Positions 56,812 to 63,336 of a stretch of DNA of 64,000 bases are shown here, piece after piece. The stretch's first letter is position 1; every line of letters starts with the position of its first letter. The notes beneath the pieces were generated by a model. That model was not told the DNA's origin and did no database searches. It worked only from the letters and a program-made list of their open reading frames with translations. Source of the DNA: Limnobacter sp. SAORIC-580 (GTDB lineage: Bacteria > Pseudomonadota > Gammaproteobacteria > Burkholderiales > Burkholderiaceae_B); contig NZ_CP053084.1 in the NCBI RefSeq assembly GCF_013004065.1, positions 1,054,001 to 1,118,000 of the forward strand, in the 5' to 3' direction. The position numbers and the translations under genes are program-made.

Positions 56812-58344
56812 ATGAACGACAAAATACAAGCCGCTGGTGACGAACAGCCAGTTGACGAGAATCAGATTATTGCCGAGCGCCGTGGCAAGCTGGCCAAATT
56901 GCGTGAGAAAGGCCAGCCTTTCCCCAACGGCTTCAAACCTGAGCACCGCGCTGCCGATTTGCATGCCAAATATGGCTTGCTGGACAAAGAAACCCTCGAT
57001 CCGCAGGGCATTGAAGTGTCTGTTTCTGGTCGCATGATGTTAAAGCGCGTGATGGGCAAGGCCAGTTTTGCAACCGTGCAAGATGGCACCGGCCGCATTC
57101 AGTTTTACATCAACAATGAAGGCGTTGGCGAAGACGTTCACGGTGAATTCAAGCACTGGGATTTGGGCGATATTATTGCGGCCAAAGGCAAGCTGTTTAA
57201 AACCAACAAGGGCGAGTTGAGCGTGCACTGCACGGAAATTCACTTGCTGGCGAAAAGCCTGCGCCCGCTGCCCGACAAGTTTCATGGCTTGGCCGATCAG
57301 GAAATCAAGTACCGCCAGCGTTACGTGGACTTGATCGTTTCCGAGCAAACACGTGACACCTTTGTTGCGCGTTCACGGGCCATGTCGTCTGTTCGCAATT
57401 TCATGGCAAACCACGGCTTTCTTGAAGTGGAAACGCCCATGTTGCACCCCATTCCTGGCGGTGCATCGGCGAAGCCTTTCATTACCCACCACAATGCACT
57501 GGACATGGAAATGTACTTGCGCATTGCGCCCGAACTGTATTTGAAGCGCCTGATTGTGGGCGGTTTCGAGCGTGTGTTCGAGATCAATCGCAATTTCCGC
57601 AACGAGGGTGTCAGCCCACGCCACAACCCGGAATTCACGATGATGGAATTCTATGCGGCGTACTGGAACTACCGCGACTTGATGGACTTCACCGAGCAGG
57701 TGATTCAACACGCTGCCACCACTGCGACCGGCAGTGCGAAGTTGACTTACCAAGGCCGCGAACTGGATTTGTCCAAGCCTTTTGCACGCCTGACAATTGT
57801 TGAAGCCATTCAAAAATACTTCCCGGAATATGGCACGGAAGACTTGCAAAACATCGACTGTCTGAAAAAGGCCTTGGCCAAGAAAGGTGTGCATGTGGAC
57901 AAAGAGCCTGCGCTGAAAAACGCGGGCATCGGTGCATTGCAGTTGGCCCTGTTCGAAGAAACCTCGGAAAGCCTGTTGTGGGAACCCACTTTCATCGTGG
58001 ACTACCCGGTTGAAGTGTCACCCTTGGCGCGCGCATCCGATGCGAATTCACAAATCACTGAACGATTTGAATTGTTCATCACTGGCCGTGAAATTGCCAA
58101 TGGTTTTTCTGAGTTGAACGATCCGGAAGACCAAGCCGACCGGTTCAAAAAGCAGGTTGAGGCCAAAGAAGCGGGCGATGATGAGGCCATGTTCTTTGAT
58201 GCCGACTTTATTCGTGCGCTTGAATATGGCATGCCACCCACCGGCGGTTGCGGCATTGGTATCGACCGTCTGATGATGCTGATCACCGATAGCCCCAACA
58301 TTCGCGATGTGATTTTGTTTCCCCATTTAAGGCGCGAAGACTAA
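56812..58344 (+). CDS. lysS: Lysyl-tRNA synthetase (class II)
   Basis: Charges tRNA-Lys. The 510-aa protein has an N-terminal OB-fold anticodon-binding domain (about 60-165) and a class II catalytic domain: motif 1 '[21 protein letters not shown]'-type, motif 2 '[20 protein letters not shown]', motif 3 '[14 protein letters not shown]'. It begins 3 bases after prfB, an order shared with E. coli (prfB-lysS). It is the last conserved housekeeping gene before the inverted-repeat cassette. Confidence 0.97.
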
Positions 58345-58699
58345 TCAAGTTTGACTCACCGTGCATGCGTGTTTACAGCACCGTGCGCGGTTTGTATTCG
58401 ATGTACTTGTTGGTTCTCCCCACTTGTAAGTTCACCACACGTGTCGCACCGTCCCGCCAAGGCGGGCTTTTATCCCTTCTTGATTGCTGCCTCGGTTCAT
58501 GCGAAACGCAAAAGCGTGTTCGCATCGATTGCTTTCGCAATCGCCCCTCGCTGCGCATCAAGCGGGAAGCCCACCTGAGATCGGCGGAACGGCGCGACAC
58601 ATGCGGTGAATCTACCCCCGGGTGATTCAGAACGGGGTATGAGTTTGGTCGCCTAAACACACTTCACTAAACTCCATTTTTATTTTTGGAGGTTTAATC
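58345..58699. repeat. Left inverted-repeat arm of a two-gene cassette
   Basis: The 355 bases between lysS and the M23 peptidase gene hold no gene. Positions 58441-58587 are inverted relative to 59623-59768 and about 87% identical by my count. The arm contains three hairpins: CCCGCCAAGGCGGG (58453-58466), ATGCGAA...TTCGCAT with an ACGC/GCGT inner stem (58499-58525), and GATTGC/GCAATC with a TTTC loop (58527-58542). From 58588 to the gene lies AT-richer sequence with a T-rich run and GGAGG before the ATG at 58700, probably the promoter and ribosome site of the cassette. Confidence 0.8.
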
Positions 58700-59158
58700 A
58701 TGTCCAACATTGAAAGTACCTTGTTTTGTTCACCGACCGGGTCAAATACAGTGCGAGGGACTGATTCTTTCGGGCAAGGGCGATTTGCCGCCTCACGCGG
58801 AGCGAGGCTCCACAGTGGAGTAGATTTTAATGTTAAGGCTGGTGACGACGTTTATTCTCCAATATTTGGAAAAATTGTTCGCGTAGCTATTCCTTATAAG
58901 TCCGATGAGAGATTTAGGGGTGTGGTGATCGAAGGTATCGGACGATACGTAGGCTATTCGGTCAAACTCTTTTATCTCGATCCGCTTAAAGAAATTGTGG
59001 GAAGAACTGTGAAGCAGGGCGAATTGATTGGAACGGCTCAAGATTTGACAATCAAGTATCCCGGTATCACAAACCATATTCACTTTGAGATCACCTTCAA
59101 AGGAATCCAGATTGATCCCTCGCGCTTTTTGGAGAAAGAAGAATTATGCAAAGTTTGA
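58700..59158 (+). CDS. M23-type metallopeptidase without signal peptide
   Basis: A 152-aa protein made almost wholly of an M23 (LytM/lysostaphin-like) domain. The zinc ligands are visible: H38 and D42 in 'RLHSGVDFNVKAGD', and H128 in 'NHIHFEI' (HxH, 126-128). The surrounding 'GDDVYSPIFGKIVRV' and 'VKQGELIGTAQD' are typical. Most M23 cell-wall hydrolases carry a signal peptide; this one does not, beginning 'MSNIESTLFCSPTGSN'. The next gene overlaps by 13 bases and encodes a lipoprotein. Base composition is clearly poorer in GC than the neighbours. A secreted peptidoglycan-hydrolase effector with its immunity protein is one reading; a cytoplasmic or phage-derived endopeptidase is another. Confidence 0.85.
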   Translation: MSNIESTLFCSPTGSNTVRGTDSFGQGRFAASRGARLHSGVDFNVKAGDDVYSPIFGKIVRVAIPYKSDERFRGVVIEGIGRYVGYSVKLFYLDPLKEIVGRTVKQGELIGTAQDLTIKYPGITNHIHFEITFKGIQIDPSRFLEKEELCKV

Positions 59159-59574
59159 AAATTTTTCTCGCTTTGATCTTTATCCAGATATCGGTGGCAT
59201 GTTCAAAATCTAATGATTCGTCGCTGGTTCGATTACATCTACAGTCGAAAACTGATTGTGAGTTGGTTTTCAAGGCTGAAAATTTTTCGGTGATCGAGAA
59301 TTTTTGCAGTATCGAAGGAAAACCCATTTTGATCAGGGTGGACGATCAAGAAATCAGGTCTGACTGGATCGATGAACGGACTAGCCGCTTTCTCTTTCAG
59401 GAAGGTTGCGCCAGTTCAGATGAATGTTTCTATGAGCTGAGTACAAACGAAGTCGGGGTGCGTGGCCGCTTCTCATATCGAATCAATATGACAGAAGGTG
59501 AATACAGCTTCGAAGTCGATAAATCTGGACAGTCGAAGGTGTTCAAGCAGTCATCCAAGGATATTCCATCTTGA
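59146..59574 (+). CDS. Putative lipoprotein, possible immunity protein
   Basis: A 142-aa protein with a lipoprotein signal: basic start, hydrophobic 'IFLALIFIQ' and lipobox 'ISVAC', so C19 would be acylated. Residues after the cysteine (SKSND) carry no aspartate at +2, which in proteobacteria favours outer-membrane sorting. The mature part is beta-rich with four cysteines and no family I recognise. Its ATG lies inside the end of the M23 gene, so the two are translationally coupled. GC content is low, as in its partner. An inner-face periplasmic position suits a protector against the peptidase, but that is inference. Confidence 0.75.
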   Translation: MQSLKIFLALIFIQISVACSKSNDSSLVRLHLQSKTDCELVFKAENFSVIENFCSIEGKPILIRVDDQEIRSDWIDERTSRFLFQEGCASSDECFYELSTNEVGVRGRFSYRINMTEGEYSFEVDKSGQSKVFKQSSKDIPS

Positions 59575-59840
59575 AAGGATTATCACAGGCTTTTTTAAGT
59601 CTCTGCGCCTGTTGCTTCATCTCGCCGATTTCAGGTGGGCTGCCCGCTTGATGCACAGCGAGGGGCGCTTCCGCCAGGAAGCGATGCGAAGACGCTTTTG
59701 CGTTTCGCATGAACCGAGCCAGCAATCAAGAAGGGATTCAAGCCCGCCAAGGCGGGATGAAGCGACATGCGCAGAGGCCGTCAAGAAACCGGTGGGATGT
59801 GAAGCAACAGGCGCATAGGCAATCAAGAAACTGGCGATGT
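59575..59840. repeat. Right inverted-repeat arm of the two-gene cassette
   Basis: Positions 59623-59768 are the reverse complement of 58441-58587 with about 87% identity. The same three hairpins occur: GCTTCC/GGAAGC with GCCA loop (59667-59682), ATGCGAA...TTCGCAT with an inner ACGC/GCGT stem (59684-59710), and CCCGCCAAGGCGGG (59743-59756). The first stem differs from its partner in the left arm by two changes that keep base pairing. It lies between the convergent ends of the lipoprotein and transglutaminase genes; no gene is seen. Confidence 0.8.
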
Positions 59841-60758
59841 CTAAAAAACCGTCACCGCCACCTTCAAGGTATGTTCCCCACCACCATGCACAACTCCGCG
59901 CATCGGCGGCACATCCGCGTAGTCTCGCCCAACTGCCACAGTCACATACCGGATATCCGGCAACTGGTTGTTGGTCGGGTCGAAGTCTACCCACCCTACA
60001 TCAGGACCACACCAAAGCGAAACCCAGGCATGACTGGCATCGGCACCCAACAGCTTGGGTTGCCCGGGCGGTGGTTCCGTCAGCATGTAGCCACTCACAT
60101 AGCGTGCAGACAAACCCAATGAACGCAGAACACCCAACATCACGTGTGCGAAATCCTGGCAAACGCCCTCGCGGCTTTGCATCACTTCTTCCACAGTGGT
60201 GTGGATGGTGGTGGAACCACTCTGGTAGGTGAATTCCCGAAAAATACGCTGCATCAAGGCCTGCCCGGCGTGTACCACCTGGCGTCCGGGCCAGAAATCA
60301 AGACTGCCATAGTCGCGCAGGGAATCGAGCAAGGGCACATGCTTGGATTCAAACCTGAACTGGTAATCGTCGGAAATTGCTTGGCCAGCCTGGTAGCGCA
60401 GCTGGTCCACCAACTCATTCCAGCTTGGGCTGATCAAATCATCAATTGGTCCCGTGTGTAAAAAGCTGCTCACCTCGACTTCGCTTTCGCTGTGCACTTC
60501 GAGGTGATCGTGTGGGTAATTCATCTCGAAGTGATGAACGACATTGCCGAATGCATCGGTGTTGCTTTGTACGGTCGACGGATTGGGGCGAATTTTCAAG
60601 GTGTGCGAAATCAGCCTTTGACCCTTGCGCAAAGGCCCGGCTTCCATGCCTTCGCCTTCTTGCGGCTGCAAAATACAAATTTGCTGCGAACATTCCGCAG
60701 GCTGTTGATAATCGTAATCGGTGACATGGGTCACCTTTCTTCTTTCCGAGAAGGGCAT
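59841..60758 (-). CDS. Transglutaminase-like family protein (cluster 2)
   Basis: A 305-aa protein with the same plan as the cluster-1 protein: N-terminal beta domain ('RRKVTHVTDYDYQQPAECSQQICILQP') and a transglutaminase core with C200 in 'GVCQDFAHVM', H243 in 'ASHAWVSLW' and D258 in 'GWVDFDPTNN'. ATG at 60758 ('MPFSERRKV') follows GGGAAG and lies 4 bases from the stop of the ATP-grasp/alpha-E gene; the frame is open to 60824 within that neighbour. Last gene of the second peptide-modification cluster. Cytoplasmic, as no signal peptide is present. Confidence 0.88.
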   Translation of the reverse strand: MPFSERRKVTHVTDYDYQQPAECSQQICILQPQEGEGMEAGPLRKGQRLISHTLKIRPNPSTVQSNTDAFGNVVHHFEMNYPHDHLEVHSESEVEVSSFLHTGPIDDLISPSWNELVDQLRYQAGQAISDDYQFRFESKHVPLLDSLRDYGSLDFWPGRQVVHAGQALMQRIFREFTYQSGSTTIHTTVEEVMQSREGVCQDFAHVMLGVLRSLGLSARYVSGYMLTEPPPGQPKLLGADASHAWVSLWCGPDVGWVDFDPTNNQLPDIRYVTVAVGRDYADVPPMRGVVHGGGEHTLKVAVTVF

Positions 60759-60762
60759 TGAT

Positions 60763-63336
60763 TTATCTTCCCTGAATGACCTGGTCGGGCAACTCTGCCA
60801 GTCTGAAATATTGGGCACCCACAAGGTCTGAAACTTTGTAGGCCGTGTCGAGTAATTCTTGCAGCCAAACGCGCAATTTGCGCCCGGTATCGGCCGGGAA
60901 GGGCGGTTGCAGTCCCTCCAGGCTCAGGCCGTCCGGCATGTCGCCATTGCGGTACACGCTGTTGAACAGTTGTCGAATCTGGCTGGTGTCGCCGGGCAAG
61001 CGGTCAATCACAATGTCCAGCTTATACAGAATTCGGCGAATGGCATAGGGCGCATCTTCGTCAAAGATCAACAGGTCGAGCGTGGGCAACCACTCAAAGC
61101 GGTGTTGATAGCGCGACCTGTAGGTGATGGTACTGTCGGCCAAAGCGATGGCCAAAGCCAGACCGTGTTCGCCCGCGCGCCCTGGCATGCTGGTCAGTGA
61201 CAGCAAACAATCGCAGGCACCGCACAAACGTTCAAGCTGACGGCCCAGCTGCAAAAAGCGCCAACCGTTGTCGCGGGTCATGTGATCGCTTTGTTCGCCG
61301 TGCATGGCCAGCAAATACAACTGAACCTGCTCCAGCGAAGCGGTGGGCAAGCTGCGTTGAAAACGTACCCACTCAGGCTCGATCAGCACTTTGGCGCAAT
61401 CGTTCAGCAATCGCCAATGGCCGCTGCTCAAGCGCTCCCGCAATTGGCCAGCCACATTGGCCAAACCATTCAATTGCCCAGCAAGGCCCACCGCTGCGGG
61501 TTCATCTAGGCCAGTTTTGTACCAAAGCCTCTCGAGAATATTGGCCTCAAGTTCATCTTGGGTCAGTGGTTCGGCCGGGTCAAATTCGGTACTCAATCCC
61601 TGCTTTCCACACAATTCATGCAAGAGGCCCAGAGTAGTTGTGTCCAGGTACTCTTCTTCGTTCAATAGCAACTGGGCACGCAGTAGCAAACGCAATGAAA
61701 AACTGGCCCGCTCGGTGTAACGGCCAAGCCAGAACAAATGCTCCGCCGCCCGGCTAGACACTGGCCTGCGCAGCGCCTGTAAATCTTTGGCTTGCAGTTT
61801 TTCTTTCAGGTTGGTGGTGCGTTCGACAGGTTCGCCACTGCGCACCCAGGTGTCCAGGCTGGTGCCACCCTTTTGCATGCTCACAATGCCGTGTTGGTCA
61901 CCGGCCACGCGGGTCAGCCCACCTGGCATCACGGTGTAGTTGCCTTGTCCATCGGTTACAGCAAACAGGCGCAGCATCATGGCGCGTTCTTCAATGCCGC
62001 CCGCACCAGTCCAAATCGGTACGCGCGAAAGCGGTATCAATTCCTGAAGGGTGTATTGCGAGGGTCGCTGGCTGATCTTGGACAACCAGGCGCGTTTCTC
62101 TATTTCATCCAGCTCCGAGCCCATGATGGAATCCATGGTACGTCCTCGGCGGTTGGGTCCAGTGGATTTAATCACCAGGTTGTTCAGCCGTTCGCTGGCC
62201 TGCGCCCATGCGGGTGATTCGCCGCACCACCAGCTGGGCACGCTGGGCAACAGCAAATCTTCTTGAAGGTAGTGTTGGCCCAGCCCCGGCATAAAGCCGT
62301 GTATGGCCGGGCTTTCCAACCAGCCTGCGCCGGGCATATTGGCCATAACAACCCCACCGGTGCGAATGGCCTGCAACAGGCCAGGCACGCCCAGTTGGGA
62401 ATCCTCGCGCAGCTCGAGCGGGTCTAGCCATTGGTCATCCGTTCTGCGAATCAATCCATCGATTGGCTCAAGTCCATTCACGGTTTTTAGAAACACATTG
62501 TTGTTGCGCACAGTCAGGTCGCTGCCTTCAACCAGCGAAATACCCAGGTAACGCGCAAGGTAGGTGTGTTCAAAGTAAGTTTCGTTGTAGGGGCCAGGGG
62601 TCAGCAGGGCGATGCGTGCATTTTCACCCTTGGGCGAAAGCCTGCGAATACCATCGATGTAGTCGCGGTAAAAACCGGCCAAATGCTGAATGTGCATTTC
62701 TCGAAAGCCGCGTGTAAAACTGCGCGAAATACTCAGCCGGTTCTCAAGTGCATACCCAAGCCCGGAGGGAGCCTGCATGCGATGGGTGATCACCCACCAT
62801 TTGCCATCCGGGCTGCGGCCGAGATCGAACGCCACCATGTGCAGCCACACCTTGTTAGGTGGTTCCGTGCCTTGCATTTGTGGCAGGTAGCCTGAATGCC
62901 CAAAGACCAGGTCTGCCGGGAGCAGACCTTTGGAAAGCAATTCGCGCTTGCTATACACGTCGGCCATCATCGCATTCAACAGGCGCGCACGTTGGGCAAT
63001 GCCTGTTTGCAGTACCGCCCAATCAGCCTGGTCAATGATGAAAGGCAGCAAGTCGAGCGACCAAGGGCGCGAGGTGCCCTGTGCGTGGTCGGCGTACACA
63101 TTGTAGGTAATACCGTTGTCCCGAATTTGCTTGGCCAGGGCATTGAGCTTGCTGTCCAGATGGTCGCTAAGCCCAGTGGTGGGTAATCGGCTGACGAAAT
63201 CTGCCCATGCCGGGCGCAGAACACCTTTGACCGCCAGCTCGCTGTAGTACGCGCTGGTGCCTTGAAGGATGCTCTGCTGCCAGGGCACCTCGACATTTGC
63301 TAGGGTGGTGTTCGGGTTCGCGCTCAAAGCGGTCAC
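60763..63336 (-). CDS. Fused circularly permuted ATP-grasp / alpha-E protein (cluster 2)
   Basis: An 857-aa fusion. Residues about 1-510 are a circularly permuted ATP-grasp domain ('MQAPSGLGYALENRLSISRSF', 'YFEHTYLARYLGISLVEGSDL', 'LREDSQLGVPGLLQAIRTGGVVMANMPGAGW'-type sequence, 'MPGGLTRVA'), and from about 530 an alpha-E domain begins with 'SSRAAEHLFWLGRYTERASFSLRLL'. The same domains are separate adjacent genes in cluster 1, so the fusion marks a physical partnership. In place of the 'HGAGGYGM' nucleotide motif of cluster 1, this protein reads 'STGPNRRGRTMDSIMG'. It stands between the DUF2126 gene and the transglutaminase gene. Confidence 0.92.
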   Translation of the reverse strand: MTALSANPNTTLANVEVPWQQSILQGTSAYYSELAVKGVLRPAWADFVSRLPTTGLSDHLDSKLNALAKQIRDNGITYNVYADHAQGTSRPWSLDLLPFIIDQADWAVLQTGIAQRARLLNAMMADVYSKRELLSKGLLPADLVFGHSGYLPQMQGTEPPNKVWLHMVAFDLGRSPDGKWWVITHRMQAPSGLGYALENRLSISRSFTRGFREMHIQHLAGFYRDYIDGIRRLSPKGENARIALLTPGPYNETYFEHTYLARYLGISLVEGSDLTVRNNNVFLKTVNGLEPIDGLIRRTDDQWLDPLELREDSQLGVPGLLQAIRTGGVVMANMPGAGWLESPAIHGFMPGLGQHYLQEDLLLPSVPSWWCGESPAWAQASERLNNLVIKSTGPNRRGRTMDSIMGSELDEIEKRAWLSKISQRPSQYTLQELIPLSRVPIWTGAGGIEERAMMLRLFAVTDGQGNYTVMPGGLTRVAGDQHGIVSMQKGGTSLDTWVRSGEPVERTTNLKEKLQAKDLQALRRPVSSRAAEHLFWLGRYTERASFSLRLLLRAQLLLNEEEYLDTTTLGLLHELCGKQGLSTEFDPAEPLTQDELEANILERLWYKTGLDEPAAVGLAGQLNGLANVAGQLRERLSSGHWRLLNDCAKVLIEPEWVRFQRSLPTASLEQVQLYLLAMHGEQSDHMTRDNGWRFLQLGRQLERLCGACDCLLSLTSMPGRAGEHGLALAIALADSTITYRSRYQHRFEWLPTLDLLIFDEDAPYAIRRILYKLDIVIDRLPGDTSQIRQLFNSVYRNGDMPDGLSLEGLQPPFPADTGRKLRVWLQELLDTAYKVSDLVGAQYFRLAELPDQVIQGR

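Follow-up and report, generated by a model that had tools for sequence, protein, structure and literature searches.

A LECT2-type M23 protein and its overlapping lipoprotein gene in Limnobacter: a probable toxin-antidote pair between two copies of a structured repeat

The window analyzed here is a 64,000-nt stretch of Limnobacter sp. SAORIC-580 (NZ_CP053084.1, positions 1,054,001 to 1,118,000, forward strand), whose 3.3-Mb genome is a single contig (hereafter G000). Between lysS, which ends at position 58344 of the window, and a transglutaminase gene on the opposite strand (59841-60824; both names given by eye) lie two open reading frames (ORFs) that overlap by 13 nt and encode an M23-domain protein of 152 residues and a lipoprotein of 142 residues (Table 1). 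A first-pass annotation, made from the letters alone, had described two low-GC genes, the second starting inside the first, for a signal-less M23 peptidase and a lipoprotein. This description holds: the overlap is as stated, GC content is 0.42-0.43 in the central two 500-base windows, down from 0.51-0.59 outside, the 152-residue protein has no N-terminal hydrophobic stretch, and the 142-residue protein has a lipobox-like start (the last two judged by eye). The annotation also proposed that the genes form an effector/immunity pair that two inverted arms might move or invert as a cassette. Here we argue that the genes form an effector/immunity (toxin-antidote) pair directed at the cell wall, known in kind but unusual in its toxin domain; we give this reading a probability of roughly two in three.

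The 152-residue protein consists of one domain, which scores 40 bits against the Pfam M23 family (PF01551; cut-off 28.7). The zinc ligands noted previously are all present (H38 and D42 of HxxxD, and H128, the second histidine of HxH); they are found in 130 of 130 aligned sequences, and H126 is also retained. What had been overlooked is the residue at position 92, where LytM-type M23 enzymes have a catalytic histidine (H260 of LytM, upstream of HxH). Here it is a tyrosine, and by this histidine the protein is not of the LytM type. Tyrosine occupies the position in 128 of the 130 aligned sequences, with histidine found in just two rows, both ordinary M23 proteins; in a set of 78, histidine is present in all 16 ordinary M23 proteins and tyrosine in the remaining 62. 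Of proteins with solved structures, human LECT2, a protein of the liver, is the closest relative. We have coined the name “LECT2-type M23 subgroup” for proteins that combine Tyr92 with H38/D42/H126/H128 and match LECT2 best, and the Limnobacter protein has all of these characteristics.

Table 1. Features between lysS and the transglutaminase gene; positions are counted from the first letter of the window.
Feature	Position	Strand	Remarks
Left arm, a copy of the structured palindromic repeat of Limnobacter	58442-58599	+	covariance-model match 58456-58584
14-bp palindrome CCCGCCAAGGCGGG, outer end of left arm	58453-58466	.	repeat analysis
Block that cannot be aligned to G005	58641-59241	+	peptidase gene and first ~32 lipoprotein codons
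GGAGG, probable ribosome-binding site (peptidase gene)	58688-58692	+	just 5' of the first ATG
LECT2-type M23 domain protein, 152 aa	58700-59158	+	zinc ligands H38, D42, H128; H126; Y92
Lipoprotein, 142 aa, proposed immunity protein	59146-59574	+	13-nt overlap with the peptidase gene
Right arm, second copy of the repeat, inverted	59610-59767	-	covariance-model match 59625-59753
14-bp palindrome CCCGCCAAGGCGGG, outer end of right arm	59743-59756	.	repeat analysis
Near-duplicate 35-nt units	59758-59792, 59800-59834	+	alternative right-arm outer stems (59601-59619 with 59800-59818)

The company this domain keeps elsewhere suggests a role in conflict. Among 398 genomes of the phylum, six match the domain at E<=1e-12: G000 itself, three with RHS proteins, and two with smaller proteins (227 and 242 residues) that have a hydrophobic N-terminus and the same tyrosine. 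The RHS proteins (G088, G340, and G119; 1296, 1146, and 2086 residues) match the Pfam RHS_repeat family at 5e-51, 1e-21, and 5e-39, respectively, and carry the domain as their last ~130 residues. In each case a gene for a small lipoprotein, lipobox-like by eye, begins just past the stop codon of the RHS gene (3, 14, and 9 bp), and if lipoproteins make up two to three percent of genes, chance is an unlikely explanation for finding one downstream in all three cases. The lipoproteins of G088 and G340, which come from different classes, are homologous (2e-10). The features expected of polymorphic toxins, a domain found at RHS C-termini (three proteins) and an overlapping lipoprotein gene downstream (lipobox by eye), are thus both found for the Limnobacter protein, and the effector/immunity role first proposed for it gains comparative support from the three genomes in which the RHS-borne domain is directly followed by a lipoprotein gene. 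G088 and G119 share one family, which slightly lowers our estimate of the toxin-antidote reading.

Some of these relatives have neighborhoods that deserve a record of their own. Behind the RHS and lipoprotein genes of G088, a 285-residue ORF (L142:4445-5302) resembles an RHS C-terminal piece by eye and is followed by a 95-residue ORF resembling a membrane protein, perhaps an orphan toxin tip. A metagenome-assembled genome of Saprospiraceae has, within L037:1499-3519, a free-standing LECT2-type gene, then a 348-residue ORF with no family assigned and a lipoprotein-like ORF of 166 residues. An M23 gene with the same tyrosine lies amid metal-resistance genes on the Phenylobacterium plasmid NC_011143.1 (L147:5812-6411), which is typed as conjugative.

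The site was compared in 16 genomes of the genus, all of which are accounted for. The peptidase gene is present in six, with an intact frame in four and a broken one in two. The three other intact peptidases are 53-74% identical to that of G000, and the two genes overlap by 13 nt in five of the six genomes; in G010, where the pair is at another locus beside a pyrroline-5-carboxylate reductase gene, the overlap is 25 nt. The pair has the orientation seen in the window in G000, where it is intact, and in G003 and G007, where the peptidase frame is broken and the lipoprotein is intact. Four genomes (G005, G006, G011, and G013) have the lipoprotein gene alone, in five copies that are all open frames; G013 has two of these, on two contigs, one of them without lysS, in an assembly rated 4% contaminated. 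In all 10 comparisons among the five orphan copies, the ratio of non-synonymous to synonymous substitution rates (dN/dS) over codons 21-142 is 0.15-0.35, and over codons 21-57 alone it is higher (0.23-0.69). The retention of the lipoprotein where the peptidase is absent (four genomes) or broken (two) is further comparative support for the proposed role, and the lipoprotein is probably the antidote of the peptidase.

An alternative is that the lipoprotein, as one of a small family of envelope proteins in Limnobacter, is the gene of use to the cell and that the peptidase is a decaying hitch-hiker, as the broken frames in two of six carriers, the four genomes that keep the lipoprotein without it, and the lipoprotein relatives at two other places in G000 that lack a peptidase gene could indicate. 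We regard this as the least probable of the alternatives weighed here, as four of the six peptidases are intact, the zinc-site residues are conserved, and the overlap between the genes is preserved in six cases of six. The two relatives in G000 (L116:4677-5105 and L117:3979-4494) lie one after nuo genes and a 100-residue ORF and the other behind czcA (gene names by eye).

Comparison of G000 with G005 reveals how the two genes vary together. The genomes are 93% alike from lysS to 58640 and again from 59242 onward, and cannot be aligned in between. The lipoprotein genes differ at 79 bases, all within codons 1-56, with codons 57-142 identical; over residues 21-57 the proteins are only 43% identical. 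The alignment gap and the confinement of the differences to the first 56 codons indicate that the peptidase and the start of the lipoprotein differ as one piece. Judging from the sequences, such a block would fit a toxin that travels together with the part of the antidote matched to it. Its left edge is near the repeat and its right edge is inside the lipoprotein gene, so the edges are not the two arms. Under the toxin-antidote reading, the locus would show the exchange of a toxin gene along with the beginning of its partner, and a candidate antidote gene alone where the toxin is absent.

The domain also occurs in phages. It was found at nine viral loci, of which two are informative: in the phage contig L154, holin (4e-19) and Rz-like spanin (9e-11) genes come after the domain gene, and in L159 an Rz-like spanin gene (5e-6) is two genes past it (support at the other loci is weak, unspecific or lacking, or they were unscanned). 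The domain gene thus stands at the place of an endolysin, and by analogy the tyrosine form of M23 is probably lytic. These neighbors, together with matches of the peptidase to metallo-endopeptidase and endolysin families in a PHROG scan of the pair's two proteins, raise the alternative of a domesticated phage lysis enzyme serving turnover or lysis of the cell's own wall, with the lipoprotein as an envelope partner and not an antidote. We consider this unlikely, however. No holin was recognized when the neighboring ORFs were read by eye (the PHROG scan covered the pair alone). The lipoprotein gene persists in genomes that lack the peptidase or have a broken one, and the RHS-borne forms of the domain suggest that it is used against other cells.

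How would a toxin-antidote pair of this type function? The toxin would be a small zinc protein of the LECT2-type M23 subgroup, with a conserved tyrosine in place of the second catalytic histidine, and could cut peptidoglycan cross-links once an injection device had delivered it to the periplasm of a target cell. The lipoprotein, anchored at the periplasmic face, would bind and block the toxin in the producer and its kin, and the 13-nt overlap probably couples translation of the two. Type VI secretion is a candidate device present in the genome: a search for this machinery, which covered the sheath gene VipB (PF05943), found it at G000:C1:3136873-3137784 and, counting G000, in 14 of the 16 Limnobacter genomes. 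The protein is not classed as a type VI effector, as it shows no linkage or fusion to VgrG, PAAR, Hcp, RHS, or MIX: its 152 residues form a single domain, and the adjacent genes (lysS and the transglutaminase gene, named by eye) encode none of these.

The arms that flank the pair are real, at 158 nt slightly longer than the ~147 bp first given, 85% complementary and 1010 nt apart. Each is a large imperfect palindrome, and the left one is branched (DNA fold z -6.3; none of 200 shuffles as stable). They are copies of a dispersed repeat; this, their palindromic form and the 14-bp palindromes at both outer ends had also been overlooked. In G000 the repeat is present in 13 copies by covariance model and likewise in 13 by BLAST (one of the latter a 30-nt piece), with 12 places in common. 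In a scan of 60 genomes, with stricter filters that lose weak matches, the covariance model located copies in 12 of the 16 genus genomes, including G000, and none in the 44 from outside the genus. In a consensus structure derived from the very 16 copies compared, 95.2% of cells pair, and 69 paired cells are changed on both sides, vs. 21.5 in shuffles (a number that 0 of 500 reach); when the partners are slid, 31-43% pair. Further pair types in the alignment were not above shuffles. The outer stem varies among copies yet stays complementary, with nine of 10 pairs of helix 1 changed on both sides. Where a copy in G000 has an ORF on both sides (12 copies; ORFs called mechanically), a forward ORF is on the left in all 12 and the ORFs converge on nine.

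The idea of a mobile or invertible cassette, with the arms as its ends and an enzyme acting on palindromic repeats, draws on the arms themselves, the 14-bp palindrome at both outer ends (Table 1), the gene-free site of G012 (161 bp), and the inverted pairs of two genomes: the pair of G009 is flipped, with lysS on one side and the transglutaminase gene on the other, and that of G008 is inverted relative to lysS, with the other flank on another contig. Orientation and content at the site do vary, as the mobility proposal implied, but its mechanism fares less well and appears improbable. The arms are the sole inverted pair among the 13 copies in G000, the other 11 being single, so that the earlier suggestion to look for other gene pairs between the same arms turned up no other cargo in G000, nor in other genomes among the matches listed. 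No transposase gene was seen by eye between the arms, and the Y1 transposase family PF01797 has no match in G000, in a search whose control gives matches in five of 14 genomes; no attC motif was noticed by eye, although no search aimed at attC was made. The inverted pair of G009 has a repeat copy on the transglutaminase side, but its lysS side is at chance level (12.8 bits, E 1.2). The one allelic block found, that relative to G005, extends from the left repeat into the interior of the lipoprotein gene and not from arm to arm, and at the right-hand place G007 shows a short hairpin that lacks the core (by eye). This bare hairpin indicates that gain and loss of the repeat core are not tied to the genes. 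In G012 one hairpin is the whole site (by eye), and with that of G007 it suggests that the core may have entered or been lost at the hairpin tip, with short repeats at the junction. The 14-bp palindromes of G000 and the 161-bp site of G012 could be read as a target-site duplication and an empty site, but deletion between short repeats would give the same picture. For the toxin-antidote pair, the flanking copies may be better seen as a supply of homology for exchange and inversion than as transposon ends. A different repeat, in direct orientation, brackets the inverted pair of G009 (L108 2558-2776 and 3953-4172, 90% alike); it is palindromic by eye, and its hairpin motifs resemble the first repeat family.

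Fixation of both genes in all relatives, which the first-pass annotation had set as a refutation of its proposal, was not seen; the site is elsewhere empty, inverted or otherwise filled. As well as in G012, lysS and the transglutaminase gene are found without either gene between them in G014 (273 bp), G015 (316 bp), and G004 (950 bp), an arrangement that the first-pass annotation had proposed to look for. G002 has no lysS match beside its transglutaminase gene. In G001 the same site (L106:1771-3604) holds a 455-residue protein and a 157-residue ORF in place of the pair, so the site may be an accessory-gene hotspot. The 455-residue protein matches the actin-fragmin kinase catalytic domain weakly (21.5 bits, under the Pfam cut-off of 24). 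The 950-bp gap of G004 (L112:1760-2709) contains long direct duplications and a run of near-identical ~50-bp units (by eye).

Several known systems share features with this locus. The repeat is like REP/BIME palindromes in being dispersed, structured and at gene 3' ends, but differs from them in its length (~130 nt) and its branched form with five consensus helices; unlike REP/RAYT systems, it has no associated Y1 transposase in G000, and it is confined to Limnobacter among the 60 genomes searched. The peptidase shares its fold, the HxxxD and HxH motifs and a PF01551 score above cut-off with M23 hydrolases of the LytM/lysostaphin/EnvC type, whose catalytic histidine is here replaced by tyrosine. 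A cell-wall toxin with a small immunity protein is also the arrangement of Tse1/Tsi1 (PDB 4eqa, 3vpj, 4fgi, and 4fqb), and a predicted model of the lipoprotein aligns with Tsi1 over 95-97 residues. M23 domains occur in antibacterial type VI effectors of Acinetobacter encoded with immunity proteins. Tpe4, Tpe14, Tpe18, Tpe24, and Tpe29 have 674-848 residues and LysM and/or NlpD-type domains (PMC6833914), and WHIX effectors with M23 domains carry an export domain and are encoded with immunity proteins (PMC12135965); the Limnobacter protein, in contrast, is one domain of 152 residues. The three RHS polymorphic toxins found here have the same LECT2-type C-terminal domain and a downstream lipoprotein gene, but the Limnobacter protein is free-standing, without RHS repeats, and its lipoprotein differs in sequence.

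What would surprise a specialist is the connection between this domain group and LECT2. LECT2 differs in being a vertebrate protein, made mainly in the liver and with signaling roles (PMC9258709; PMC10034042); it has its own amyloid disease (PMC13385698), and its absence of the M23 catalytic histidine is described as degenerate (PMC9662197). A literature search found no paper joining LECT2 to polymorphic toxins, within a scope outside which most subscription journals fall. We know of no lipoprotein partner of LECT2. Tentatively, the tyrosine-bearing LECT2-type M23 proteins might be a distinct class of active peptidoglycan hydrolases used as weapons by bacteria and phages, in the form of free-standing toxins with lipoprotein antidotes, RHS tips and endolysins, of which vertebrate LECT2 would be a captured member. 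If so, the “missing” histidine of LECT2 would mark not a decayed active site but the ancestral form of an enzyme of bacterial conflict. Should the bacterial tyrosine forms cut peptidoglycan, the “degenerate” label would need reconsidering, and a bacterial source of the vertebrate gene would become testable. The comparison thus offers a group of likely antibacterial effector domains that can be recognized by one residue, with candidate antidote genes adjoining, and a bacterial and phage setting for LECT2, a human signaling protein.
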